Positions 7,349-20,653 of a stretch of 45,952 nt of DNA are shown one piece after another (position 1 is the first letter of the stretch; every line of letters starts with the position of its first letter). A program made the translations under genes and the position numbers. The notes under the pieces were generated by a model. The model worked only from the letters and a program-made list of their open reading frames with translations, was not told the DNA's origin and did no database searches. The DNA is from Desulfobacteraceae bacterium (GTDB taxonomy: Bacteria > Desulfobacterota > Desulfobacteria > Desulfobacterales > Desulfosalsimonadaceae): contig QZJS01000057.1 of NCBI GenBank assembly GCA_003597945.1, positions 1-45,952 of the forward strand, read 5' to 3'.

Positions 7349-8524
7349 TTAATAGGCGTTTTGAACATAAGGCAGTAATTCCTCTTCGTCCATGGGACGC
7401 GGGTTATAGAAGGATGAACCGTCATTGAGGGCGCCTTCGGCGATAACAGCCGGTCCGTCTTCAGGAACGCCGGTATCCCTGAGCCGGATGGGAAGGGCGC
7501 CTAATTCATTAAGTTTGCCGGTCATGCTGCGTATGGCGGCAATGACGTTTCTGGCCGCATCTTCATCCGAAATCCCCTGGGCCGCCACCCCCATGACCGG
7601 GGCCAGCCGGGCCAGTTTTTCATAGATGAAATCAAAATTATAGTCCAGACCGTAAGGGAGAAGGATACCGTTAGCCACGCCATGCGGCACCCGGTAATGA
7701 GCGCCGGCGGCATGGGCCATGGCATGGACGACCCCGACCATGGAATGGGTAAACGCGATACCCGCCATGGTGGCGGCAACCAGCATGCCGCCCCGGGCCT
7801 CGATGTCATCGCCGTTTTCCACGGCCCGGACCAGGTTTTTCATGATCAGCTCAATGGCGCCGGCGGCCATGACATCGGATATGGGGGAGGACTGAATGCC
7901 GACATAGGCTTCCACCGCGTGGGTCATGGCATCCATTCCCGTGGCCGCCGTCATTTTTGGAGGCAGGGAAAGGGTCATTTCCGGGTCGAGCACGGCCAGA
8001 TTGGGGAGCAGGAATTTATCCGGAAATGCTAATTTTTCCTTGTTGTCCTCATCATAGATCACGGCCGCCATGGTGACTTCGCTTCCGGTGCCGGCCGTTG
8101 TCGGGATGACGATATGCGGCTTCAACGGCCGGGTCAGGGTATGGGCGCCGGAATAGTCGTCCACCAGATCCCCGCCCTCGGAAAAGAGAATATTGACCGC
8201 TTTTGCCGTATCAATGACGCTGCCGCCGCCGATGGAAATGATGCCCTCCGCGCCGGAAGCTTTGACCAGATCGGCGCATTTTTTTACGTCATTGAGCCGC
8301 GCGTCCTGGGCCACGTCTAAATACCGACCCACGGTTTCAAAGCCGACGTTTGCAAGTCCGTCCGCCACTTTCTGAACCAGTCCCAAATCGGAAATGACAT
8401 GGTCGGAGATGATGAAATATTTTTTAATGCCGATGATGTCGAGTTCAGGCTTTAAGTCTGTTGCAATGCCGATCTGGTAGACGATTTTTGTGGGGTTATA
8501 GAATTCAAAGAATTCGGGCAGCAT
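7349..8524 (-). CDS. iron-containing (group III) alcohol dehydrogenase
   Basis: A protein of 391 residues with the NAD-binding GGGSVIDTAKA motif near residue 100, TTAGTGSEVT near 140, and the metal-binding His region HAMAHAAGAHYRVPHGVANG near 260-280. These are the hallmarks of Fe-dependent alcohol dehydrogenases, which reduce aldehydes or oxidise alcohols with NAD(P)(H). I chose the ATG at 8524 (AAGGAG 6 bases upstream) over the GTG one codon earlier. It sits downstream of the acyl-CoA dehydrogenase terminator and upstream of the SCP2 gene. The alcohol used cannot be inferred from sequence alone. Confidence 0.92.
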   Translation of the reverse strand: MLPEFFEFYNPTKIVYQIGIATDLKPELDIIGIKKYFIISDHVISDLGLVQKVADGLANVGFETVGRYLDVAQDARLNDVKKCADLVKASGAEGIISIGGGSVIDTAKAVNILFSEGGDLVDDYSGAHTLTRPLKPHIVIPTTAGTGSEVTMAAVIYDEDNKEKLAFPDKFLLPNLAVLDPEMTLSLPPKMTAATGMDAMTHAVEAYVGIQSSPISDVMAAGAIELIMKNLVRAVENGDDIEARGGMLVAATMAGIAFTHSMVGVVHAMAHAAGAHYRVPHGVANGILLPYGLDYNFDFIYEKLARLAPVMGVAAQGISDEDAARNVIAAIRSMTGKLNELGALPIRLRDTGVPEDGPAVIAEGALNDGSSFYNPRPMDEEELLPYVQNAY

Positions 8525-8843
8525 CACGCGCTCCTTGTTATGGAAGGGTTACGGTTGAATTGGCTGAATAACTCAAAATTTTTTACATAAAATTGACGAC
8601 AGCGTCAACAGGTTTTTCTAAACAGTGTTCCGGACCTGATGCGTTTTTCTAATCCATATGTTGCAAATACCTGAGGAAAGAGACGGTCCTTGTTGTGCCC
8701 GACGCATCATAAAACCGGCGACCCGGCCAGTTCAGAGGAATAGTGCATGCAAAACAGGATTAACGCCCAGGGGCGTTGGGACGTAAAAAGAAAATATCCC
8801 ATGGGGACGGATTAAAATCGTCCCCATGGGCGTAAGACGTGAT
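8525..8843. promoter_or_regulatory. intergenic region (319 bp) between Fe-ADH and acyl-CoA dehydrogenase genes
   Basis: The region holds the acyl-CoA dehydrogenase terminator (8798-8830) and, further on in the minus direction, a compact palindrome at 8762-8777 (7-bp arms AACGCCC/GGGCGTT separated by 2 bases). The rest should contain the promoter and leader of the Fe-ADH gene, but I could not pick a convincing promoter. No gene is seen. Confidence 0.4.
8798..8830 (-). terminator. Rho-independent terminator after the acyl-CoA dehydrogenase gene
   Basis: A perfect 12-bp stem (8798-8809 with 8819-8830) and a 9-base loop, 13 bases beyond the stop codon. Read on the minus strand it is followed by an ATATTTTCTTTTT tract. 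It separates the beta-oxidation genes from the Fe-ADH/SCP2/AOR group. Confidence 0.9.
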
Positions 8844-10700
8844 TTATATCCCGCCGAAGGATTTTTCCCCCATGGTGACTACAGCGTCAGTGGTGGCGAA
8901 AACGGCGTTCATTCTGCCAAGGGTTACGGGCAGGATGGAATTGATGTAATATGTCGCGGTTTTATAAAGGCCGTCATAAAAGGCCACATCCTTGTTTTTT
9001 TCGGCTTTTTCAGCGATAACGGCCGCATCCAAACCGCCGGCAAGGGTTTTTAGTTTCGGGACCGCAATGGTGGCCCGCCACAGATGCATCCATGCCATGA
9101 TCAAGTCACCCATGGCTTCCATGAAAGGATAGGCATTGGCAAAGGCGGTTTTAAATTCCGCCGACATGGCGGTTTTGCCGATATGCATGGCGGTTTCGCC
9201 GAAGCGGTTGACCGCGGCTTCGAGTTTCGCGGCCATGTCGGCCAGTTCTTCGATGTTTTTGGCGACAGCGATGGTTTTCTGGATTTCACCCAGAAATTCC
9301 ATGACCACGGCCCCTTTTTTCATGCCGAGTTTGCGGCCGAGCAGGTCCATGGCCTGGATGCCGTTGGTACCTTCATAAATGGATGCGATTTTGCAGTCTC
9401 GCGTCAACTGCTCAACGGGATATTCCTTGGTGTAGCCGTACCCGCCATAGACCTGCATGGCCTGGACACAGACATCATAACCCCGGTCGGTGCAGTAGGC
9501 CTTGACCAGAGGGGTGAGCAGGTCGATGAGCCCTTTCCACCGTTCGGCCTCCTCGGGGGTTTTGGCGCACTGTTCCATGTCGAACAGGTATCCCACATAA
9601 TAGATGAAGCTACGCATACCGTCCACATGGGCCTTCATCCACATGAGCATCCGCCGCACATCGGGATGGCGGATGATGGCGGTCTGAGGCGCGTCCGCGT
9701 CCATCATTTTTTCCAGTTCCTTGCCCTGGAGGCGTTCCCTGGCGTAGTTGACGGCATACAGATACGCGGATGAGCCATGATTGAGGCCCTGGAGTCCAAC
9801 GCCCAGACGAGCTTCGTTCATCATGTGAAACATGACCCGGATGCCCTTGTTTTCCTCGCCCAGGAGCAGACCGCGGCATTTGCCTTTGGAGCCGAAAGCC
9901 AGTGAGCAGGTGGGGCTGCCGTGAAGTCCCATCTTTTCCTCGATGCCGGTGCAGGCAACGTCGTTGTACTCGCCTATGGAGCCGTCCTCGTTGACCCAGA
10001 ATTTGGGAACGATGAACAGAGAAATCCCCCGTGTACCGGCGGGCGCGCCTTCGATTCGGGCCAGTACCGGATGGATAATATTTTCCGTTAAATCCTGATC
10101 GCCGTTGGTGATAAAGATCTTGTTGCCGGTAATATTGTAGGTGCCGTCAGGATTTTTGGTTGCCGTGGTGGTCAGGGCGCCCAGGTCCGAGCCCGCGTTG
10201 GCTTCGGTGAGTACCATGGTGCCGGCCCATTTGCCGGTATAGAGATTTTTCAGAAACATTTTTTTCTGCAAATCAGTGCCGTAAAGTTCGATCATTTTGC
10301 CGGTGCCGTGTCCCAGTACGGCGTAGGCCGCAAAGGCAAAATTGGCGCCGATGAGGTATTCCCGGGCGGCCTGGGCGATGAGAATGGGCAGTCCCTGACC
10401 GCCGATTTCCGGATCTTCGCTCAAGGCGATCCATTCGCCGTCCCGGAACAGCTCCAGAGGGCGCTTGAAGGATGGCGGGGCGATGACCCGGCCGTTTTCA
10501 TACCGGACGGGATTTTTATCCCCCTCCGCGTAGGTGGGCAGGATTTCCTTGATGGCGAAATTCCGGGCCTCGTTGACTACCATGTCAAAGGCCTTTTTGT
10601 TGAGATCGCTGTATTGTTCCAGCTTGGTGAGCTTTTCGGCCTCCAGTTGCTCATAGAGCACAAATTCGACGTCCCGTCGATCCGCGATATATTGGGCCAT
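8844..10700 (-). CDS. acyl-CoA dehydrogenase, long (about 600-residue) type with C-terminal extension
   Basis: This 618-residue flavoprotein has the acyl-CoA dehydrogenase order: N-terminal helices, a middle beta domain with TMVLTEANAGSDLGAL (FAD and substrate contacts, about 161-176), a C-terminal helical domain with QVYGGYGYTKEYPVEQL, and IYEGTNGIQ, in which Glu443 is the likely catalytic base. It is some 200 residues longer than the classic enzymes and ends in the extra helical domain seen in the AcdB-like long subfamily. It would catalyse alpha,beta-dehydrogenation of an acyl-CoA and pass electrons to ETF. AAGGAGG precedes the ATG. It follows the thiolase gene by 64 bases and is the last gene before the terminator. 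The long subfamily often handles bulky or unusual acyl-CoAs; the substrate here is unknown. Confidence 0.92.
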   Translation of the reverse strand: MAQYIADRRDVEFVLYEQLEAEKLTKLEQYSDLNKKAFDMVVNEARNFAIKEILPTYAEGDKNPVRYENGRVIAPPSFKRPLELFRDGEWIALSEDPEIGGQGLPILIAQAAREYLIGANFAFAAYAVLGHGTGKMIELYGTDLQKKMFLKNLYTGKWAGTMVLTEANAGSDLGALTTTATKNPDGTYNITGNKIFITNGDQDLTENIIHPVLARIEGAPAGTRGISLFIVPKFWVNEDGSIGEYNDVACTGIEEKMGLHGSPTCSLAFGSKGKCRGLLLGEENKGIRVMFHMMNEARLGVGLQGLNHGSSAYLYAVNYARERLQGKELEKMMDADAPQTAIIRHPDVRRMLMWMKAHVDGMRSFIYYVGYLFDMEQCAKTPEEAERWKGLIDLLTPLVKAYCTDRGYDVCVQAMQVYGGYGYTKEYPVEQLTRDCKIASIYEGTNGIQAMDLLGRKLGMKKGAVVMEFLGEIQKTIAVAKNIEELADMAAKLEAAVNRFGETAMHIGKTAMSAEFKTAFANAYPFMEAMGDLIMAWMHLWRATIAVPKLKTLAGGLDAAVIAEKAEKNKDVAFYDGLYKTATYYINSILPVTLGRMNAVFATTDAVVTMGEKSFGGI

Positions 10701-10764: not shown

Positions 10765-11967
10765 TCAGTGCTTTCCGATAATAGATATACTGCAGATATT
10801 CTGGAAGGGAAATCCTCCCAGGTTATGGGTCAGGCCGAGTTTCGGATCTTTGAGCTGGCGTTTGTCGGCCCGTCCGTGCAGTTGCAGATACATTTCATAA
10901 ATCATGCGAAGCCCGGACGCGCCGATGGGATGGCCGAAACATTTGAGTCCGCCGTCGATCTGGCAGGGCACCTGGCCGTCGCTGTCGTAAAACCCGTCCA
11001 TGATATCATTAATGGCTTTACCGCGCGGAGAGATGTGAAGGTCCTCGTATGTCACCATTTCAGTAATGGAAAAACAGTCGTGCACTTCCATCATGGAGAT
11101 CTCCTCCCGCGGGTTCTTGACGCCGGCTTCTTCGTAAGCCTTGAGACTGCATTTGGTGGTGGTCATGAAATGATCGCAGTCCCAGTCGTTAAAGGCGGTT
11201 TCTTCGCCGCTGCTGAGGGCAAGCTGGAGGGCCTTGACCGTGACGAAATCCTTTTTCCCAAGTTTTTTGGCGATTTCAGGCGTGGTGACAATGGCGCAGG
11301 CCGAGCCGTCGCTCACGCCGCAGCAGTCAAACAGTCCCAGTGGGTGGGCGATGATGGGCGATGCCATAATCTGTTCTTCGGTGACGACCTTGCGCAGATG
11401 GGCTTTGGGGTTTAATGCGCCGTTGGCGTGGCTTTTGGCCGAAATGTGGGCGATGGCGCGCTTGATATCGGCATCCTTGACCTTGTATTTGGCGCCATAG
11501 GCGGAAGCCAACTGGGCAAACGATCCCGGAGCCGTGAGATTCGGCCACCACTGCCACAGCAGTGACCCCGCGCTGGAGCCGCCGCCGGGAAGACCGCCGT
11601 AACCGGTATCTTTTAGTTTTTCAACGCCTAAAGCCAGGCAGATGTCATAAGCCCCGGAAGCCACCGCGTAGCAGGCGCCGCGAAACGCCTCGGTGCCCGT
11701 GGCACAGTAATTTTCCACCCGGGTGACCGGGATCATGGGCAGCCGCAGGGTGACGGCCATGGGCATGGCGGTTTTGCCCACATTGACTTCATCCATGCAG
11801 GTGCCAAACCAGGCGGCCCCGATGTCTTTTACGTCCACGCCGGCATCGGCCAGGCATTCTTCGAATGCCTCGAGCATCAGTTCTTCCGCGCCCACGTCCC
11901 ATCGCTCGCCGAATTTGGTGCATCCCATTCCGATGATGGCGACTTTGTCCTTTATTCCTGTAGCCAT
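10765..11967 (-). CDS. thiolase (SCPx/archaeal acetyl-CoA acetyltransferase-like, DUF35-associated type)
   Basis: A 400-residue thiolase-fold protein. The nucleophilic Cys is visible at residue 88 in VENYCATGTEA, and the C-terminal half has EVHDCFSITE and CFGHPIGASG, which supplies an active-site His; the end reads THNLGGFPFQN where classic thiolases have a CxG motif, as in SCPx and archaeal thiolases. Such thiolases commonly work with a DUF35 (zinc ribbon plus OB-fold) partner; here the partner domain is probably inside the next-upstream 912-residue fusion, whose gene ends only 37 bases away. Expected role: CoA-dependent cleavage of a 3-oxoacyl-CoA. AAGGAGG precedes the ATG. Confidence 0.88.
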   Translation of the reverse strand: MATGIKDKVAIIGMGCTKFGERWDVGAEELMLEAFEECLADAGVDVKDIGAAWFGTCMDEVNVGKTAMPMAVTLRLPMIPVTRVENYCATGTEAFRGACYAVASGAYDICLALGVEKLKDTGYGGLPGGGSSAGSLLWQWWPNLTAPGSFAQLASAYGAKYKVKDADIKRAIAHISAKSHANGALNPKAHLRKVVTEEQIMASPIIAHPLGLFDCCGVSDGSACAIVTTPEIAKKLGKKDFVTVKALQLALSSGEETAFNDWDCDHFMTTTKCSLKAYEEAGVKNPREEISMMEVHDCFSITEMVTYEDLHISPRGKAINDIMDGFYDSDGQVPCQIDGGLKCFGHPIGASGLRMIYEMYLQLHGRADKRQLKDPKLGLTHNLGGFPFQNICSISIIGKH

Positions 11968-12004: not shown

Positions 12005-14743
12005 TTAAGAGAGTTTGAACAGTTTTCCGATGAGCTGCGATTTCATCACGTCGCCATCGATTTTCAGTTTACCCGACGAAAACGCCTGCATGGGATCGAG
12101 TTTTCCGGAAATCATGTCGACAAAATCCGTATCCGCAATGCGCAGGGAGCAGGTCGGCTTGTCGGCTTTACCGGTGTCCACGGTGCAGGTTACATCCTTG
12201 ACCGTCACGGTCCAGTCGCCGCCCATGGGACCGGAAATGTGGTATTGGAACACCACATCCACTCCCTTGGCCTTTTCGGCATTAAACGCCTCGGGCATTT
12301 TTTTGAAAACATCGGCCACCGTCATACCTCCGGCGGCGCCGGCGTCAGCGGGGGCGGGTTGCGCGGCAGCGGGCTTGGGCGGCGCCATCAACTCAAACAG
12401 GGCCGCGTTGAGATCGTCGAATTCTTTTGCGCCGGTCATATCATTGATCTTGTCGATATTTTCGCTGATCTCTTCAGGTGTGGGGAAATTGGTTTCATCG
12501 CCAAGCTGGACCGCGGAGTTGGTCAGTATGGCCACCCGGTTGAAATATCCCATGCCGGTGTTAAAAATCTGTCCGCTGGCCTTACACTCGTCACTGCAAA
12601 GATAGAGCACCAGGGGCGAGACAAACTCGGGTTTCATTTTCTCGAAAATTTCGGGCGGCATGATGTCCTCGGTGAGCCGGGACGCGGCAATGGGCGCGAT
12701 GGTGTTGACCTTGATGTCGTATTTCCGGCCTTCCAGTTTCAAGGTGTTCATCAAGCCCACCAGGGCCATTTTGGCGGCGGAATAATTGGTCTGGCCGAAA
12801 TTGCCGTAAAGCCCGGCCGCCGAGGTGGTCATGATGATGCGGCCGAAACCGTTTTCCCTCATGGCCGTAAAGGCCGGACGGGTCACGTGGTAGGCGCCGT
12901 TGAGATGCACCGCCATGACCGCAGCCCAGTTTTCCGGATCCATTTTGAGAAAACTCTTGTCCCGCAGGATGCCCGCGTTGTTGATCAAAATGTCCACGCG
13001 GCCGAAGGCGTCAATGGCGGTCTTGACGATGTTTTCGCCGCCTTCGGGGGTGGCCACGTTGTCGTAATTGGCCACGGCCTTTCCGCCGAGGGCTTTGATT
13101 TCGTCAACAACCTTGTCGGCGGCCGAGGATGAGCCGCCGCCGGAGCCGTCCCTGGCACCGCCCAGGTCGTTGACCACAACAAAAGCGCCCCGTTTGGCCA
13201 GTTCAAGGGCGTAAACCCTTCCCAGTCCGCCGCCCGCGCCGGTAATGATGGCCACCCGGCCGTTGAAATTGATCTTGTTCATCTCTTCAGCAGCCCCGGG
13301 TACCGGTGCGGCCTTCCAGAAATAATTGACAAAACCGCGTTCCTTGTCTTCGTTGCGCTTGCGAAACACCATCCGGACCGGCAGACCGACTTTAAGGTCT
13401 TCCTGTTTGCAGTCCGTGAAATCCGCCATGAAACGGCCGCCGCCTTCAAACTGGATCATGCCGTACTTGTGGGGCGGTTCCAGGGAAACGGCCAGCAAAT
13501 CGCCGGTGAAGGTTTTGACTTTTGCCGGCACATCGGCGAATTCATAATCATCCTGGCTGTGTTTGGCTGTGCACGCCGGGTTGACGCAGACCTGGGTCTT
13601 GGGAAATTGGGCGGTGCCGCATTCCCGGCATTTGCCGCCCACCAGCCCGAGCAGCATCTTGCGCCGCCGCCAGAGCACGGTCAGGGCCGTCTGGGTAGGC
13701 GATTCGGCCCGGATCCCCATCTCCGGATTGATCAGGTTCCTGAATACAAGAAATTTTGAATAATTATCCGTAGTCTCCTTGAGTTCCAGGGTGTTCTTGA
13801 ATTTATCCCTTTCCGGAAGTTTTTCGATCTTTTCGGTGACCTCGAACAAGAAGGCGTTGCACCCCTGACCGAAGCTTGCCATCAGGATGCGATCTCCGGG
13901 TTTGGCTTCATCTAAAGCCTTTGTCAGCATGAGCATTGGATGGGCGCATCCGGTTTCACCGCAGACTTCATGAAGGTTTTCGATGACTTTTTCCTTGGCG
14001 GCTCCGAGTTTTTTGGCGATATTGGCATGCTCCGCCTTGAAGAAACACGGATAGACCAGCCTGTCCACCTGGTCCATGGTCATGTTGAGTTTTTTAAGCA
14101 GCCCGGTGACCGCTTCGGGAATGATTTTCGAATACCCCTCATCCCGGATCCAGCGCTCCTCCCAGTTGTAATCATATTTTTTCTGGGCGCCCCGGTAATG
14201 GTCCACAAAATCATAGGATACGGAATAGGAGCCCTTGAATTCGGCGATGACGTTCTCATCGCCCACCGTCAGGGAGGCCGCACCGTCGCCGAACCACATT
14301 TCATGGAACCAGGCCGGTTTGGTTTCCCGCATGTCGGATGCCGTAACGAGGATGTTTTTCCTGGCCCCGCCCATGACCGATTCCAGGGCAGTGAGAAGGG
14401 CCGTGGACCCGGCTTTCTGGGACGCGGTGAAATCGGATGTCAGAATATCATCTCTTAGGTTTAATGCCGTGGATACGATGCCCGCGTTCTGCCGGTCCGC
14501 GAAGGGCAGGGAGGTGGACGCCAGAAAACAGGCGTCAAGTTTGTTTTTATCAAGACCCTTGAGGCAATCCCGGGCCGCGGCCACCGCCATGGTGACGGCA
14601 TCCTCGTCCCAGTTGCACATGGACCGCTCGCCCTGGGCCACCATGATCAGGGCCGGGGCGAACCACCCCATGCTCTGGTATATGGCCATCCGGTTTAATC
14701 TTAAGCGGGGGATGTATGCGCCGTAAGATGTGATTCCTATCAT
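12005..14743 (-). CDS. four-domain fusion: HMG-CoA-synthase-like thiolase fold + DUF35 zinc ribbon/OB-fold + SDR + SCP2
   Basis: The 912-residue product reads without interruption through four domains. Residues 1-345 are like archaeal HMG-CoA synthase (DEAKPGDRILMASFGQG near 278-294). Residues 360-470 are a DUF35 module with zinc Cys372, 375, 386 and 391 and an OB-fold. Residues 491-770 are a short-chain dehydrogenase close to the MFE-2 type (TGAGGGLG at 501, Ser641, Tyr654, Lys658). A Pro/Ala linker (787-806) leads to an SCP2 domain (807-912). In the first domain the synthase Cys position reads SQKAG (Gln109), and the usual catalytic Glu motif reads ASTS, so HMG-CoA synthase activity is unlikely. 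It may act as a non-catalytic partner, aldolase or altered acyltransferase with the thiolase encoded downstream, while the SDR should oxidise a 3-hydroxyacyl-CoA. GAGGAG lies 7 bases before the ATG. Confidence 0.85.
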   Translation of the reverse strand: MIGITSYGAYIPRLRLNRMAIYQSMGWFAPALIMVAQGERSMCNWDEDAVTMAVAAARDCLKGLDKNKLDACFLASTSLPFADRQNAGIVSTALNLRDDILTSDFTASQKAGSTALLTALESVMGGARKNILVTASDMRETKPAWFHEMWFGDGAASLTVGDENVIAEFKGSYSVSYDFVDHYRGAQKKYDYNWEERWIRDEGYSKIIPEAVTGLLKKLNMTMDQVDRLVYPCFFKAEHANIAKKLGAAKEKVIENLHEVCGETGCAHPMLMLTKALDEAKPGDRILMASFGQGCNAFLFEVTEKIEKLPERDKFKNTLELKETTDNYSKFLVFRNLINPEMGIRAESPTQTALTVLWRRRKMLLGLVGGKCRECGTAQFPKTQVCVNPACTAKHSQDDYEFADVPAKVKTFTGDLLAVSLEPPHKYGMIQFEGGGRFMADFTDCKQEDLKVGLPVRMVFRKRNEDKERGFVNYFWKAAPVPGAAEEMNKINFNGRVAIITGAGGGLGRVYALELAKRGAFVVVNDLGGARDGSGGGSSSAADKVVDEIKALGGKAVANYDNVATPEGGENIVKTAIDAFGRVDILINNAGILRDKSFLKMDPENWAAVMAVHLNGAYHVTRPAFTAMRENGFGRIIMTTSAAGLYGNFGQTNYSAAKMALVGLMNTLKLEGRKYDIKVNTIAPIAASRLTEDIMPPEIFEKMKPEFVSPLVLYLCSDECKASGQIFNTGMGYFNRVAILTNSAVQLGDETNFPTPEEISENIDKINDMTGAKEFDDLNAALFELMAPPKPAAAQPAPADAGAAGGMTVADVFKKMPEAFNAEKAKGVDVVFQYHISGPMGGDWTVTVKDVTCTVDTGKADKPTCSLRIADTDFVDMISGKLDPMQAFSSGKLKIDGDVMKSQLIGKLFKLS

Positions 14744-14818: not shown

Positions 14819-16924
14819 TTACATTTTAAAAAGTTTCCCGATGAGCTGGGATTTCATGACATCCCCGTCGATTTTCAGCTTGCCCGAGGTGTATGCCTGC
14901 ATGGACGGCAGTGTCCCGCTGATCATGTCCAGAAAATCCGTGTCGGCCATTTTCAGGGTGCAGGTGGGCTTGCCATGGACACCCGCTGAAACAATGCATT
15001 CCCCGTCTTTGATGTCGCAGAACCAGTCGCCTCCGCCGGGTCCCGAAATATGGTACTGGAACACCACCGTGACGCCCTTGGCGGCATCCTTGTTGAACGC
15101 GCCGGGCATGGCGGCAAATACATCGGCCACCGACCCCGTCTTTTTGGCGGCGGACTCGGCGGTGGCGGCCGGCGCGGAAAAGGCGTTGATCATGTCGCCT
15201 ACTTGTTCGTTGAGTTCGAAATATTCCTTTCCGCCTTTAAGGGCGCCGATTTGATCCAGATGGTCCGCGACTGCTTCCACCGCGGGGATGGATTTGCCGT
15301 CGCCAAGCACGATTCCCTTGCCTGTAATCACGGCGGCCCGGTTGAAAAATCCCATGCCCGCGTTGTAGATATAACCGTCGACCTTGCATTTTTCCGAGCA
15401 GAGATAAAGCACCATGGGAGAGACGAATTCGGGTTTGAGTTTTTCAAAGAATTCCTTTGGCAGGATATCTTCGGTCAGCCGGGATGCGGCGATGGGCGCC
15501 ACGGTATTGACCAGAATATTGTATTTTTTTCCTTCGATTTTCAAGGTGTTCATCAGGCCGAGGAGTCCCATTTTGGCCGAAGAATAGTTGGTCTGGCCGA
15601 AATTGCCATACAGACCCGCGGCCGATGTGGTCATGACGATGCGGCCGTATCCCTTTTCCCGCATGACGGCAAAGGCGGGTTTGGTGACGTTGTAAGCGCC
15701 GGTCAGGTGGACATCGATGACCGCCTGCCAGTTTTCGGGGTCCATTTTGAGGAAACTCTTGTCCCGCAGGATGCCCGCGTTATTGATCAGGATATCCACG
15801 GTGCCGAAGGCGTCCATTGCTGTCTTGACGATATTTTCACCGCCTTCGGGCGTGGCCACGTTGTCGTAGTTTGCCACGGCCTCGCCGCCGGCGGCCTTGA
15901 TCTCATCCACCACCTTGTCCGCGGGGCCCTTGCCGGCGCCAGCGCCGTCCCGGCTGCCGCCGAGATCGTTGACTACAACCTTTGCCCCCCGTTTGGCCAG
16001 CTCAAGGGCGTAAACCTTTCCAAGGCCGCCGCCGGCCCCGGTCACAATGGCCACCCGGCCGTCAAAACGAATTTCTTCTTTCAAAATGTCGCCGTATTCA
16101 CAAAGACCGTTGGTGATGACGTCCGCATTGGTTTTTGTATTGGTGACTTTCCAGACCGCCTTGCCGTCTTCGGTTTTCCAGATCTGAATTTTGATGGGAT
16201 CTCCGGGGTAAAGCGGTTTGGAAAAGCGGCATTTCAGGCGTCGAAGCTTTTCGGGTTCGCCGGGGATCAGGTTCTGGATCAATGCCCGGCAGGCATAGCC
16301 ATAAGTGCAGAGTCCGTGCATGATGGGTTTTTCAAACCCGGCCATCTTGGCAAATTCCGGGTCAGCGTGCAGGGGAAACAGATCGCCGGACAAACGATAG
16401 ATCAGGGGCTGGTCCGGCGAGGGCTGGGCGTCGATCTCGAAATCCGGCTTTTTTTCCGGGAAGGCAAAGACTTCCGCGGGCGCGTTCTGGCCGCCGAATC
16501 CGCCGTCCAGCCGACAGAAAATCGACAGCGTGCTGGTGAAAAGCTTTTTACCGGAGGAGTGATACGTTTCACTTTCACCGATGACCAGGGCGCCTTTGCC
16601 TTTGCCCTTGTCATACATATGGGTGATTTTTCCTTCGGTGGTCAGGGTCCCTTCAACGGGAATAGGGTTGTGGAAGATCAGGTCCTGCTCGCCGTGAACG
16701 ATGCCGGCGAGATTGACATTGGCATTGACCCCGATATGAGAAAGGAAATCAAAAATCGTGGCAATGGAAAACGTGGGGATGACTTTCAGATTCTTTTCAT
16801 AGGTGTATTCGGGTTCTGAAAATCCGGCACCCACGCCGAGCGCGTAAAGCACCACATCCTTCCATGTGTAATCTTTGGTGACGGGACCGATTTTCTTCCC
16901 GACGGCATCAAGGTTCAGCGCCAT
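14819..16924 (-). CDS. MFE-2-like fusion in permuted order: MaoC hydratase 2 + SDR + SCP2
   Basis: The 701-residue product carries all three modules of peroxisomal multifunctional enzyme type 2, but with the hydratase first. Residues 1-280 are a double hot-dog hydratase with YRLSGDLFPLHADPEFA: the catalytic Asp181 and His186 are present, but the motif Asn is replaced by Phe183. Residues 285-560 are a (3R)-hydroxyacyl-CoA dehydrogenase-type SDR (TGAGGGLG, Ser434, Tyr447, Lys451), and about 600-701 are SCP2. It should hydrate a 2-enoyl-CoA and oxidise the 3-hydroxyacyl-CoA to 3-oxoacyl-CoA, with SCP2 holding the hydrophobic chain. The ATG at 16924 follows a near-perfect AAGGAGG; a start 22 codons earlier would add an unrelated tail. 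Its SDR-SCP2 half is a close paralogue of that in the next gene. Confidence 0.88.
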   Translation of the reverse strand: MALNLDAVGKKIGPVTKDYTWKDVVLYALGVGAGFSEPEYTYEKNLKVIPTFSIATIFDFLSHIGVNANVNLAGIVHGEQDLIFHNPIPVEGTLTTEGKITHMYDKGKGKGALVIGESETYHSSGKKLFTSTLSIFCRLDGGFGGQNAPAEVFAFPEKKPDFEIDAQPSPDQPLIYRLSGDLFPLHADPEFAKMAGFEKPIMHGLCTYGYACRALIQNLIPGEPEKLRRLKCRFSKPLYPGDPIKIQIWKTEDGKAVWKVTNTKTNADVITNGLCEYGDILKEEIRFDGRVAIVTGAGGGLGKVYALELAKRGAKVVVNDLGGSRDGAGAGKGPADKVVDEIKAAGGEAVANYDNVATPEGGENIVKTAMDAFGTVDILINNAGILRDKSFLKMDPENWQAVIDVHLTGAYNVTKPAFAVMREKGYGRIVMTTSAAGLYGNFGQTNYSSAKMGLLGLMNTLKIEGKKYNILVNTVAPIAASRLTEDILPKEFFEKLKPEFVSPMVLYLCSEKCKVDGYIYNAGMGFFNRAAVITGKGIVLGDGKSIPAVEAVADHLDQIGALKGGKEYFELNEQVGDMINAFSAPAATAESAAKKTGSVADVFAAMPGAFNKDAAKGVTVVFQYHISGPGGGDWFCDIKDGECIVSAGVHGKPTCTLKMADTDFLDMISGTLPSMQAYTSGKLKIDGDVMKSQLIGKLFKM

Positions 16925-17384
16925 TTTGGATCCTCCTTCGTTTGTTTTGGATATGTTGATATCAACAAAAACAGTTAGCCGTTCGTACATTTACAATACA
17001 GGTACCATATTTAAAAACGTCTGCAGAAAACGTTAGCTGGTGTGAGATTCGCATGATTATCCGTCTCAATTTTTTGGGATAATGCGGATAACAGGGAGAA
17101 GATTTTCATTTGATTTTCATGGAATGATCATATCGTCATCCTTAAGAAGGGTCCCCATAGATTGATGAAATTTTTTCAACTCTTTTTCTAATCAATTTGT
17201 TCCATCAAATGATGGAGCCATAATATGCTCTTTCGAAACAGGTGTCAAAAGTTTTTTTTAACAAAGTTTACAAAAATTATTTTACGTTATTGACTTCATA
17301 TGGACGAGCGTTTACAGTTTTCAAACGATTGATGGAAACGATTGATTGAAATACAATGCCGAACACGGAAACAGGAGTGATAAG
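16925..17384. promoter_or_regulatory. divergent control region of the acyl-CoA island
   Basis: This spacer of 460 bases lies between the minus-strand MaoC-SDR-SCP2 gene and the plus-strand AMACR/CoA-transferase gene. For the plus side, TTGACT (17290-17295) and TACAGT (17313-17318), 17 bases apart, form a plausible sigma-70 promoter, immediately followed by a direct repeat of AAACGATTGAT at 17323-17333 and 17336-17346, placed where a repressor would cover the transcription start. Near the minus-strand gene, AACGT-N9-ACGTT (17016-17034) is another possible operator. The TetR gene two genes away is the obvious candidate regulator (inference). Confidence 0.5.
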
Positions 17385-18533
17385 ATGACAAACAAAGGGG
17401 CGCTGGCCGGGTTAACCGTTCTGGATCTGTCCCGGCTGCTGCCGGGACCGTTTTGTTCGATGATTCTTTCGGATCACGGGGCGCGGGTGATCGCCATAGA
17501 GGATAAACGTTTTGCTTCCGAGGCCGGGGCCAATGCCGGGGTATACCGGAACAAAAAACACATGACCCTGAACCTGAAAAAAGAAACCGGCCGCAAGATT
17601 TTTCTGGAAATGGCCCGGCAGGCCGATATTATCCTGGAAGGTTTCCGCCCCGGGGTAACCCGACGGCTGGGCGTGGATTATGATACGGTATCGCAAATCA
17701 ATCCGAAGATCATTTACTGTTCCATTACCGGCTACGGGCAAACCGGCCCGTACCGTGACACGGTAGGACATGATGTTAATTATCTCAGCATTGCCGGCGT
17801 TCTGGATCTGATCGGCGTCAAGGACGGTCCTCCCTGCATCCCCGGTATTCAGATTGCCGATATGGCCGGCGGTGCGCTTTATGCGGTGGTCGGTATTCTG
17901 ATGGCCCTGCACGCCCGACAAACCACCGGCCGGGGGCAGTATATCGACATCTCCATGACCGACGGAAGCATGAGTCTGCTGACGCTGGTACTGAGCCTTA
18001 CCAATCTTACCGGACGGCCGGCACGCCGATCCGATTCATTTCTATCCCATCGGTATGCGTGTTACCATGTATATGAAACCGCGGACCATCGATATCTCTC
18101 CATCGGCGCGGTTGAAAACCGTTTCTGGAAAACCATCTGTGATTATTTCAACGTTCCGGAATATATTCCCCTCCAGTATGATGAGGCGCGGAGACAAGAA
18201 ATTTTTGATTTCATGGAAAATCAATTCCGGCAAAAGACCCTTTCTGAGTGGGAACTTGAACTGGCTGATCTCGAGATCTGCTGGGCCCCGGTGAGAACCG
18301 TGGATGAGGCCATGGCCTCTGAGCTGTTTAAAGCGCGTGAAATGGTTGTAGAGATCAGGGATGACAAGGGGCATGATTCAAAGGGAATCGGCACCCCGGT
18401 CAAGCTGAGCGACACGCCGGGTTCGGTGCGGACGCCGCCGCCTGGCTTTGGTGAAAACACAAAAGAGATCTTAAGATCTTTCGGCTATTCCAATGACAGC
18501 ATTAAAGAATGGGAAGCATCCGGAGTGATCTGA
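17385..18533 (+). CDS. alpha-methylacyl-CoA racemase-like / family III CoA-transferase
   Basis: This 382-residue protein belongs to the CaiB/BaiF family. Its GHDVNY (His129), QIADMAGG (Asp159) and GAVENRF (Glu244) line up with the His/Asp/Glu set of alpha-methylacyl-CoA racemases; family III CoA-transferases share the Asp, so the transferase alternative stays open. A racemase would convert (R)- to (S)-2-methylacyl-CoA, which is needed before dehydrogenation of branched or sterol side chains; a transferase would activate the acid. The ATG at 17385 follows AGGAG by 7 bases; a TTG 13 codons upstream is less likely. It is divergent from the MFE-2-like gene and shares its control region. Confidence 0.83.
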   Translation: MTNKGALAGLTVLDLSRLLPGPFCSMILSDHGARVIAIEDKRFASEAGANAGVYRNKKHMTLNLKKETGRKIFLEMARQADIILEGFRPGVTRRLGVDYDTVSQINPKIIYCSITGYGQTGPYRDTVGHDVNYLSIAGVLDLIGVKDGPPCIPGIQIADMAGGALYAVVGILMALHARQTTGRGQYIDISMTDGSMSLLTLVLSLTNLTGRPARRSDSFLSHRYACYHVYETADHRYLSIGAVENRFWKTICDYFNVPEYIPLQYDEARRQEIFDFMENQFRQKTLSEWELELADLEICWAPVRTVDEAMASELFKAREMVVEIRDDKGHDSKGIGTPVKLSDTPGSVRTPPPGFGENTKEILRSFGYSNDSIKEWEASGVI

Positions 18534-18656: not shown

Positions 18657-19274
18657 ATGGCATCATCTCTTGAAAAGGCAAAACAGAACCCGGACTCCAT
18701 GAAGGCGAAAATCCTGACCGCGGCCCGGAGAATCTTCGGCGAATACGGTTTTCACGGCACCACAACGCGCATGATCGCAAAAGCCGTTGATATCGATATT
18801 TCAACGCTCTATTATCACTGGGGGGAGAAAGGGGATCTTTATGAGGCGGTGATCCGGGACATCAGCGAGGGACTGCGCCAGAAGCTCATTGAAGTCGAGA
18901 AAATCGTCAAGGGCCGGCCCCTTGAGGAGCGTCTTGAAATCGCCATCGAGGAGATGTCGGATTATCTGTTCGCCAATCCCGAAATATCCAACATCACCCT
19001 GTTCCGCTATTTCACAAAGACCCGGCACGGCAGCATTTTTGACTTCAAGGTGCCGGAATACATCGGCGACATCGCCTATTCCATGGGGCTTTCCAGCGAC
19101 CGGAAAAATGTCCCCAATGACGCGAAAATGAAAGTGCTGGCCATCATGAACGCCATCCACAACTTTGTTTCCGGAGAAAATTTTTTCCGGCCCATGTTGG
19201 GCGTCGACCGGGAAACCTATATCCGGATGTCAAAAGAGACGCTGAAATTTTTCAACCTGTCGGCGTTTACCTGA
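18657..19274 (+). CDS. TetR/AcrR family transcriptional regulator
   Basis: A 205-residue regulator whose N-terminal helix-turn-helix (about residues 30-60) reads GTTTRMIAKAVDIDISTLYY and is typical of TetR proteins; the C-terminal ligand domain is all-helical and not diagnostic. It lies 123 bases after the AMACR-like gene on the same strand and faces the fusion-protein operon across the shared control region, so an acyl-CoA-responsive repressor of the island is the simplest reading (inference). The ribosome site is weak (AAAGG). Confidence 0.88.
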   Translation: MASSLEKAKQNPDSMKAKILTAARRIFGEYGFHGTTTRMIAKAVDIDISTLYYHWGEKGDLYEAVIRDISEGLRQKLIEVEKIVKGRPLEERLEIAIEEMSDYLFANPEISNITLFRYFTKTRHGSIFDFKVPEYIGDIAYSMGLSSDRKNVPNDAKMKVLAIMNAIHNFVSGENFFRPMLGVDRETYIRMSKETLKFFNLSAFT

Positions 19275-19497: not shown

Positions 19498-20220
19498 TCA
19501 ATCCAGGACCATCAGATTCAGTGAATCGATGTATTCGGTGTCCTGTGCGTCCATGATCTCTATTATCCGCCGGTGCATCCGCTGTTTATGCTCTCCGAAG
19601 ATGCCCCGTTTCTTCTGAAAGCTCCGGGCGAAGGTAAGGGCTTCTTCCATAAGCGACGCGGCATCCGGGCACGCCTTTTGAATCACATGACTGGTCTCAA
19701 GCTCGGCCGCGGCGGCTCTTTTTCCGGTCAGTTTCAATTCATTGAACTTGTATTCGGGAATGGCCTTGCGCACAAACGCGATCATGCCGGGAAGAAAGGG
19801 GATACCCAGATCGACTTCCGGAAAACAGAAATAACCCCTGTCGGCCTTCATGAACCGGAAATCACACGCGCATGACAGTATGGCCCCGTTTCCGAAAGCG
19901 TGACCGTTGATGGCGGCGATGACCGGCACCGGCAGGGTCAGAATTTTTTTAAATACCGCGTTCATGCCGTACATGAAATCCTTGATGTTTCCAAAAGCCT
20001 GGTTCTGCATCTGGACCCCGAGCCAGTCGATATCGACCCCCAGGGACCAGCAACGGTCGTCCGTGGAAGTGACGACAACGGCCCGGATGTCGGCGTCCGT
20101 CATAATGTCATCAAGGGTCTGAAGCATGATTTTTGAAAATTCAAGATTCTGACGGTTTTCACCGTTGTTCATTGCCACAACGGCGACGGCGCCGTCCTTT
20201 TTCCATTCAACGATCGCCAT
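19498..20220 (-). CDS. enoyl-CoA hydratase/isomerase family protein, ECI (delta3,delta2-enoyl-CoA isomerase)-like
   Basis: A crotonase-fold protein of 240 residues. The oxyanion-hole segment NGHAFGNGAILSCACDFRFM and the following DRGYFCFPEVDLGIPF resemble peroxisomal/plant enoyl-CoA isomerases: the Glu of PEVDLG is present, while the first hydratase Glu position (GNGAIL) has no acid, which favours isomerase over hydratase. Such enzymes shift a 3-enoyl to a 2-enoyl-CoA during oxidation of unsaturated acids. The ATG at 20220 follows AAGGAGG and lies inside the end of the MerR gene (14-base overlap), so the pair is translationally coupled. The gene ends by the palindromic repeat. Confidence 0.82.
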   Translation of the reverse strand: MAIVEWKKDGAVAVVAMNNGENRQNLEFSKIMLQTLDDIMTDADIRAVVVTSTDDRCWSLGVDIDWLGVQMQNQAFGNIKDFMYGMNAVFKKILTLPVPVIAAINGHAFGNGAILSCACDFRFMKADRGYFCFPEVDLGIPFLPGMIAFVRKAIPEYKFNELKLTGKRAAAAELETSHVIQKACPDAASLMEEALTFARSFQKKRGIFGEHKQRMHRRIIEIMDAQDTEYIDSLNLMVLD

Positions 20221-20653
20221 GATGGGCCTCCTTAATAAGTTGCGATGGTTTCCCCGTGCGGATTTCTTCAAGGCGGTTGATGATCTTCTGCTGAATGGCC
20301 AGCAGGTCCTGTTTGAGAATCATCAATTCCTCCATTCGTTCATTGATTTCTTTGAGTTTTCTTTCGCCGAACGCCAGGCTGGTTTTCAACTGTTCGATTT
20401 CATCCTTGTTGAATTCGGCCAGCCCGATCATTTCAGCGATTTCATCCAAGGAATATCCCAGGCGTTTGCCCCTCATGATGAGTTTAAGGCGGGTGCGGTC
20501 CCGTCTGGTATAAACACGGTGATTCCCCTTGGTCCTCCCGGGCAGGATCAAGCCTTTTTCCTCGTAGAAGCGAATGGCGCGGGTGCTGATATCGAGTTGT
20601 TCGGCAATGTCTGAGATGGTCAGCAGGATGTTCTCTTTTGGTTTGTTGTCCAT
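20207..20653 (-). CDS. MerR family transcriptional regulator (LiuR-like)
   Basis: A 148-residue regulator with an N-terminal winged helix (LTISDIAEQLDISTRAIRFYEEKGL...NHRVYTRRDRTRLKLI) and a coiled-coil dimer helix with many Glu/Lys/Leu from about residue 75 to 135. No Cys-rich metal-binding tail is present, so a metal sensor is unlikely. It resembles LiuR-type MerR proteins that control branched-chain and fatty acyl-CoA catabolism. It overlaps the ECI-like gene, its likely target along with itself. Confidence 0.85.
   Translation of the reverse strand: MDNKPKENILLTISDIAEQLDISTRAIRFYEEKGLILPGRTKGNHRVYTRRDRTRLKLIMRGKRLGYSLDEIAEMIGLAEFNKDEIEQLKTSLAFGERKLKEINERMEELMILKQDLLAIQQKIINRLEEIRTGKPSQLIKEAHHGDR

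Follow-up and report, generated by a model that had tools for sequence, protein, structure and literature searches.

A predicted scaffold-dehydrogenase fusion of HMGCS-like, DUF35, SDR and SCP2 domains beside a conserved thiolase in Desulfobacterota

What might a single protein do that joins an HMG-CoA synthase (HMGCS)-like domain, a DUF35 domain, a dehydrogenase of the SDR type and a lipid-binding SCP2 domain, and which of its parts are enzymes? Such a gene lies in the window (the whole stretch of 45,952 nucleotides analysed here, on contig 16 of the 3.72-Mb genome, in 137 contigs, of an anaerobic bacterium resembling sulfate reducers), and an initial annotation had suggested that its product, together with a thiolase encoded next to it, brings 3-hydroxyacyl oxidation and thiolysis into one complex. 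The claimed single uninterrupted frame proved intact: it encodes 912 residues from an ATG start, has no internal stops, follows a clear GAGGAG-type ribosome-binding site and shows a similar GC content in all four domains (0.53-0.59). The thiolase, annotated as lying 37 bases downstream, is exactly there, with its ATG 37 nt past the fusion stop codon and behind a ribosome-binding site of its own. The features of the locus are collected in Table 1.

Table 1. Features of the fusion gene and its surroundings, in window positions; residue numbers refer to the protein named in the row, or to the fusion for its domains.
Feature	Position	Strand	Basis
Four-domain fusion gene, 912 aa	12005..14743	-	ORF, domain profiles, predicted model, orthologues
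HMGCS-like domain, residues 1-340, catalytically dead (Glu->Thr, Cys->Gln, His->Pro)	13724..14743	-	profiles, alignment, Foldseek 6et9_I TMt 0.91
DUF35 zinc ribbon and OB fold, residues 357-481, four invariant Cys	13301..13675	-	profiles, alignment
SDR, residues 493-775, MFE-2-type (3R)-hydroxyacyl-CoA dehydrogenase; invariant Ser/Tyr/Lys and NAD-type Asp	12419..13267	-	sequence comparison, Foldseek
Linker, residues 776-803, second half Pro/Ala-rich and of low confidence in the model	12335..12418	-	composition, AlphaFold
SCP2 lipid-binding domain, residues 804-912; nearest solved relative: SCP2 domain of MFE-2	12008..12334	-	profile, sequence comparison
SCP2-thiolase-type thiolase, predicted partner; Cys88, His296, His346, His381 conserved	10765..11967	-	NF004810/PRK06157 702 bits, cut-off 403
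MaoC/hydratase-2 - SDR - SCP2 protein, 723 aa; true start probably internal ATG ~16924	14819..16990	-	profiles
Acyl-CoA dehydrogenase, 618 aa, probable operon member	8844..10700	-	ORF, profiles, relatives' neighbourhoods
Fe-dependent alcohol dehydrogenase family, conserved neighbour among close relatives	7349..8527	-	profiles, neighbourhoods
CoA-transferase family III, divergent neighbour among close relatives	17346..18533	+	profiles, neighbourhoods
TetR regulator, neighbour in many relatives	18657..19274	+	profiles, neighbourhoods
Enoyl-CoA hydratase/isomerase family, neighbour among close relatives	19498..20271	-	profiles, neighbourhoods

The proposed domain order was borne out by Pfam and NCBIfam profiles. 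Residues 1-338 match HMGCS-like models (NF003274, 6e-62; TIGR00748, 3e-44), both below their equivalog cut-offs, followed by zf-ChsH2 at residues 367-391 (23.1 bits against a cut-off of 23.2), OB_ChsH2_C at 420-461, adh_short at 496-685 (4e-43) and SCP2 at 821-910 (1.5e-18). An AlphaFold model of the fusion (66 aligned sequences; mean pLDDT 82, pTM 0.69) shows folded domains and low-confidence linkers at 348-358 and 789-805. In Foldseek comparisons the first domain resembles archaeal HMGCS (6et9_I, TMt 0.91) and PhlA (TMt 0.85), and the SDR resembles the MFE-2 dehydrogenase; the SDR is indeed nearest to MFE-2, with 50% identity to the rat and human proteins.

A chimeric assembly or a frameshift could have merged adjacent genes, the more so as other bacteria carry the same parts as separate neighbours: in some Gammaproteobacteria HMGCS-DUF35, thiolase, acyl-CoA dehydrogenase, SDR, MaoC and CoA-transferase are encoded by separate adjacent genes. 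Against this, a fused frame (an open frame of >800 aa) was found in 19 of the 395 genomes searched in the phylum, the window's own included; these belong to 10 families, and one of them (G015) is a single-contig genome. A one-genome-per-species scan yielded more fused loci in Desulfobacterota assemblies, the genome scan for the fusion having reached close relatives only. In all, 45 distinct fused sequences were collected, from Desulfobacterota genomes that were assembled independently and represent at least 10 families. Since the fusion recurs across so many independent assemblies, and as one clade, a frameshift or chimera is excluded, and we rejected an assembly artefact as having a negligible probability.

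The fusion has one evolutionary origin: in a tree of 103 HMGCS-DUF35 sequences all 45 fused members form a single clade (SH-aLRT 99), with a single change between the fused and unfused states. Inside this clade the C-terminal SCP2 was lost about three times (three changes on the tree), and three-domain relatives without SCP2 are found. The two-domain HMGCS-DUF35 form (about 490 aa), encoded next to a thiolase, is found widely among other Desulfobacterota and among Alpha-, Beta- and Gammaproteobacteria. As to novelty, the architecture is not confined to one genome and recurs across Desulfobacterota, but our literature searches among open-licence papers found no published description of the four-domain protein. 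The fusion is built wholly from known parts and is apparently undescribed in the open literature searched.

Is the first domain an enzyme? It had been called a thiolase-fold domain, and this holds for the fold but not for catalysis, every catalytic residue checked being gone. We read the active-site positions by alignment to the archaeal enzyme 6esq, in rows that include some near-identical duplicates. Thr stands in place of the catalytic Glu in 109 of 110 rows and Pro in place of the catalytic His in 110 of 111; at the position of the nucleophilic Cys, 89 rows have Gln, 15 have Leu and none has Cys. The domain therefore has the fold of an HMG-CoA synthase and lacks its Glu/Cys/His set, while the four zinc cysteines of DUF35 are invariant (111/111 rows). 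The replacements are identical in fused and unfused HMGCS-DUF35 members, from which it follows that catalysis was lost before the fusion.

These replacements bear on two readings in which the domain would still be active. In one, it would work as a condensing enzyme of the HMG-CoA synthase or KASIII-like kind, making the chain biosynthetic; the top-scoring curated models are indeed archaeal HMGCS and the HMGCS fold is matched at TMt 0.91, but with Glu, Cys and His replaced family-wide and the profile scores below the HMGCS equivalog cut-offs we give it very little credence. The other is a KSQ-like decarboxylase, with Gln for Cys, acting on a malonyl- or methylmalonyl-type CoA ester. The 89 rows with Gln fit this, as do the methylmalonyl-type intermediates of alkane fumarate-addition pathways, a probable cluster for which is present in the genome. 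However, about 20 rows carry Leu, Ile, Met or Ala at the Cys position and the catalytic His is Pro, so a decarboxylation site is not preserved; moreover PhlA, which is structural, has Gly at the same position. We regard this reading as very improbable, and both are disfavoured because the catalytic residues are lost. PhlA also lacks the Cys and Glu; PhlA and PhlB are thought to be necessary for proper assembly of the PhlABC complex, of which PhlC is the sole catalytic subunit (PMC6392133). The HMGCS-like domain is best read as a pseudo-enzyme forming a PhlA-like scaffold, so that of the two enzyme-like domains of the fusion chain only the SDR is predicted to be active.

The catalytic Ser, Tyr and Lys of the SDR and the NAD-favouring Asp after strand 2 are invariant (93/93 rows). 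In the thiolase, Cys88 and His296 are conserved in 82 of 82 rows, His346 in 81 of 81 and His381 in 80 of 81. It is also the next gene in 69 of the 70 loci with enough contiguous sequence (fused, 23/24; unfused, 46/46), across a gap of -1 to 198 nt. The one remaining locus, L055, we dismissed as an exception without thiolase, its gene being flanked by runs of N in a scaffolded MAG and hence uninformative. The intact SDR and the conserved adjacent thiolase support 3-hydroxyacyl oxidation plus thiolysis as the likely joint function, in line with the initial annotation.

Other partners or directions of catalysis were weighed at this point. The thiolase could be a Sal- or Ltp2-like retro-aldolase in a complex that cuts steroid-like side chains, given that DUF35 docking is common to these systems and that a second SCP2/zinc-ribbon/MaoC/thiolase-like cluster occurs in the same genome. 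However, the thiolase has a nucleophilic Cys and three His, kept in 80-82 sequences, and lacks the aldolase residues of Sal and Ltp2, which use Tyr/Cys or Tyr pairs; in addition, a dehydrogenase precedes the thiolase here, which fits thiolysis, and we hold a retro-aldolase to be highly unlikely. Nor do we favour a PhlABC-like acyltransferase, or a complex working in the synthetic direction, over a beta-oxidation thiolase: the closest solved relatives include PhlA, whose site is dead in a similar way, and PhlC likewise retains Cys and His, but acyl-CoA dehydrogenase, hydratase-2 and (3R)-hydroxyacyl-CoA dehydrogenase occur together in the operon, and the thiolase resembles PhlC far less than it does archaeal, BbsB and SCP2 thiolases. 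This alternative is unlikely.

We thus come to read the fusion, with a probability of about 70%, as the one-chain scaffold-plus-dehydrogenase of a (3R)-specific beta-oxidation complex. In it, a dimer of the dead HMGCS-like domain would, with DUF35, take the roles of PhlA and PhlB (or of archaeal HMGCS and DUF35) and hold thiolase dimers in place. (3R)-Hydroxyacyl-CoA would come from the MaoC hydratase-2 encoded upstream and be oxidised by the fused SDR to 3-ketoacyl-CoA close to the thiolase; the latter would then free acetyl-CoA or propionyl-CoA, with SCP2, on its flexible linker, tethering or presenting the hydrophobic acyl chain. Complex formation with the thiolase, stereospecificity and substrate transfer are predictions of this reading. 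In known systems DUF35 sits between a thiolase-fold enzyme and its partner, as a subunit of its own in PhlABC, the archaeal HMGCS complex and BbsAB; in ChsH2-Ltp2 and Shy-Sal it is established that DUF35 is instead attached to the enzyme of the foregoing step and docks the thiolase-fold protein, and the authors of that work found the long flexible linkers of Shy-Sal hard to square with direct channelling (PMC12329534). In the fusion the enzyme of the foregoing step, the dehydrogenase, follows DUF35 in the chain. Since SCP2 likewise sits on a flexible linker, direct channelling is not implied for the fusion, which offers a testable system for substrate channelling in DUF35 complexes, a question left open by that study. 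Possible but doubtful is a more elaborate, peroxisome-like (3R)-beta-oxidation super-complex, in which two paralogous SDR-SCP2 proteins and the thiolase would be assembled on the pseudo-HMGCS scaffold and SCP2 would serve as a swinging arm delivering a branched acyl-CoA to hydratase, dehydrogenase and thiolase in turn.

The hydratase in this scheme belongs to a MaoC-SDR gene, which stands upstream of the fusion gene in 21 of 22 loci and of the unfused gene in 0 of 38. The protein it encodes in the window is a reordered MFE-2 and a paralogue of the SDR-SCP2 half of the fusion (69% identity). The Asn of the hydratase-2 motif contributes to catalysis in MFE-2; in the MaoC domain of this protein and its relatives Asn is replaced by Phe in 23 of 28 sequences, with Asp and His retained, so that hydratase activity is uncertain. 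In an SDR tree whose root is unsure owing to long-branched eukaryotic references, a single clade (100) unites the SDRs of the fusion gene with those of its upstream neighbour and separates them from free-standing relatives. The two copies are mutual closest relatives in loci L014, L015, L028 and L063, and likewise in L025, where the neighbour gene is cut by the locus end; in L014, L015 and L028 they are 77-87% identical, more than to any copy from another genome. This within-genome pairing suggests gene conversion inside the operon, and the simplest reading of the sequences is that a duplicate of the upstream gene's SDR-SCP2 module became joined to HMGCS-DUF35, with occasional gene conversion afterwards. 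Further out, close relatives have the CoA-transferase III, TetR, enoyl-CoA hydratase and Fe-dependent alcohol dehydrogenase genes in common, and some also the acyl-CoA dehydrogenase. The window also encodes an LpxR-family outer membrane protein at 1662-2777 (PF09982, 1.4e-96, 371 aa).

Known systems resemble the fusion locus in part. Compared by sequence, the locus shares with the PhlABC Friedel-Crafts acyltransferase of Pseudomonas protegens (PDB 5m3k) an HMGCS-like part without Cys and Glu, a DUF35 with its cysteines and an adjacent thiolase-fold catalytic subunit with Cys and His and, as predicted here, a scaffold role for the A and B parts; PhlABC, however, consists of three separate proteins, has neither SDR nor SCP2 and performs biosynthetic C-acylation, whereas the fusion joins the A and B parts. 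The archaeal acetoacetyl-CoA thiolase/DUF35/HMGCS complex (PDB 6esq) is made of the same three folds (TMt 0.89-0.91 for the HMGCS domain), but its HMGCS is active and separate, SDR and SCP2 are absent, and it serves the mevalonate pathway. Peroxisomal HSD17B4/MFE-2 and SCPx offer the 50% identical SDR, a C-terminal SCP2 of the same kind and a thiolase class, that of SCP2-thiolase, to which the thiolase is related; MFE-2 differs in lacking HMGCS and DUF35 and in carrying hydratase-2 in its own chain, which here is part of the upstream MaoC-SDR-SCP2 protein. Benzoylsuccinyl-CoA thiolase BbsAB also pairs a thiolase with a DUF35 subunit in anaerobic beta-oxidation, but there DUF35 is separate and HMGCS absent, and the thiolase of the window does not pass the BbsB model (NF053628, 142 bits against a cut-off of 750). 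In the steroid side-chain complexes Shy-Sal and ChsH1-ChsH2-Ltp2 DUF35 is fused to the preceding pathway enzyme and docks a thiolase-fold partner, with a hydratase and an aldolase in the places taken here by dehydrogenase and thiolase. The fusion illustrates how a condensing-enzyme fold, probably turned dead scaffold, was joined to a dehydrogenase and a lipid-binding arm in one event whose product is kept in at least 10 families of anaerobes.

The weakest step concerns the substrates, which by analogy with peroxisomal MFE-2 and SCPx are likely to be hydrophobic, long or methyl-branched acyl-CoAs. The addition of alkanes to fumarate gives methyl-branched acyl-CoAs, and substrates of this kind are processed by peroxisomal MFE-2 and SCPx. 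The genome encodes a MasD-like alkylsuccinate synthase, a glycyl radical enzyme (1278 bits, full length, against PDB 9o8u), in a cluster (contig 7, 46001-60397) with methylmalonyl-CoA-mutase-type, PrpD-family and activase-like radical-SAM genes nearby. The MasD-like enzyme with the mutase-type and radical-SAM genes beside it indicates that the host probably activates alkanes by fumarate addition, and the fusion is a candidate for carrying out the later steps of beta-oxidation when hydrocarbons are degraded anaerobically. Across the genomes searched the association is modest: the fused gene occurs in 4 of 20 genomes with a synthase and in 15 of 375 others (p = 0.011, relatedness ignored), while any HMGCS-DUF35 gene is enriched with the synthase, in 17 of 20 versus 93 of 375 (p = 7e-8, relatedness likewise ignored). 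A strict link between fused gene and alkane activation is unsupported, as only 4 of the 19 fused-gene genomes have a synthase match and 15 have none. Other 3-hydroxyacyl-CoA dehydrogenases, of the 3HCDH_N type, are encoded in the genome of the window, one of them within an 804-residue open frame, which likewise speaks against exclusivity. In the same genome eight matches to PFL-like glycyl radical enzymes exceed the family cut-off, two of them partial. Finally, the second SCP2 cluster of this genome (contig 9, 7001-19500) encodes an unusual 1006-aa protein in which an acyl-CoA ligase is fused to three SCP2 domains in tandem and a zinc ribbon. Alongside it lie three thiolase-like genes and genes for a DUF35-MaoC protein of 300 aa and an SCP2-zinc ribbon protein of 282 aa.
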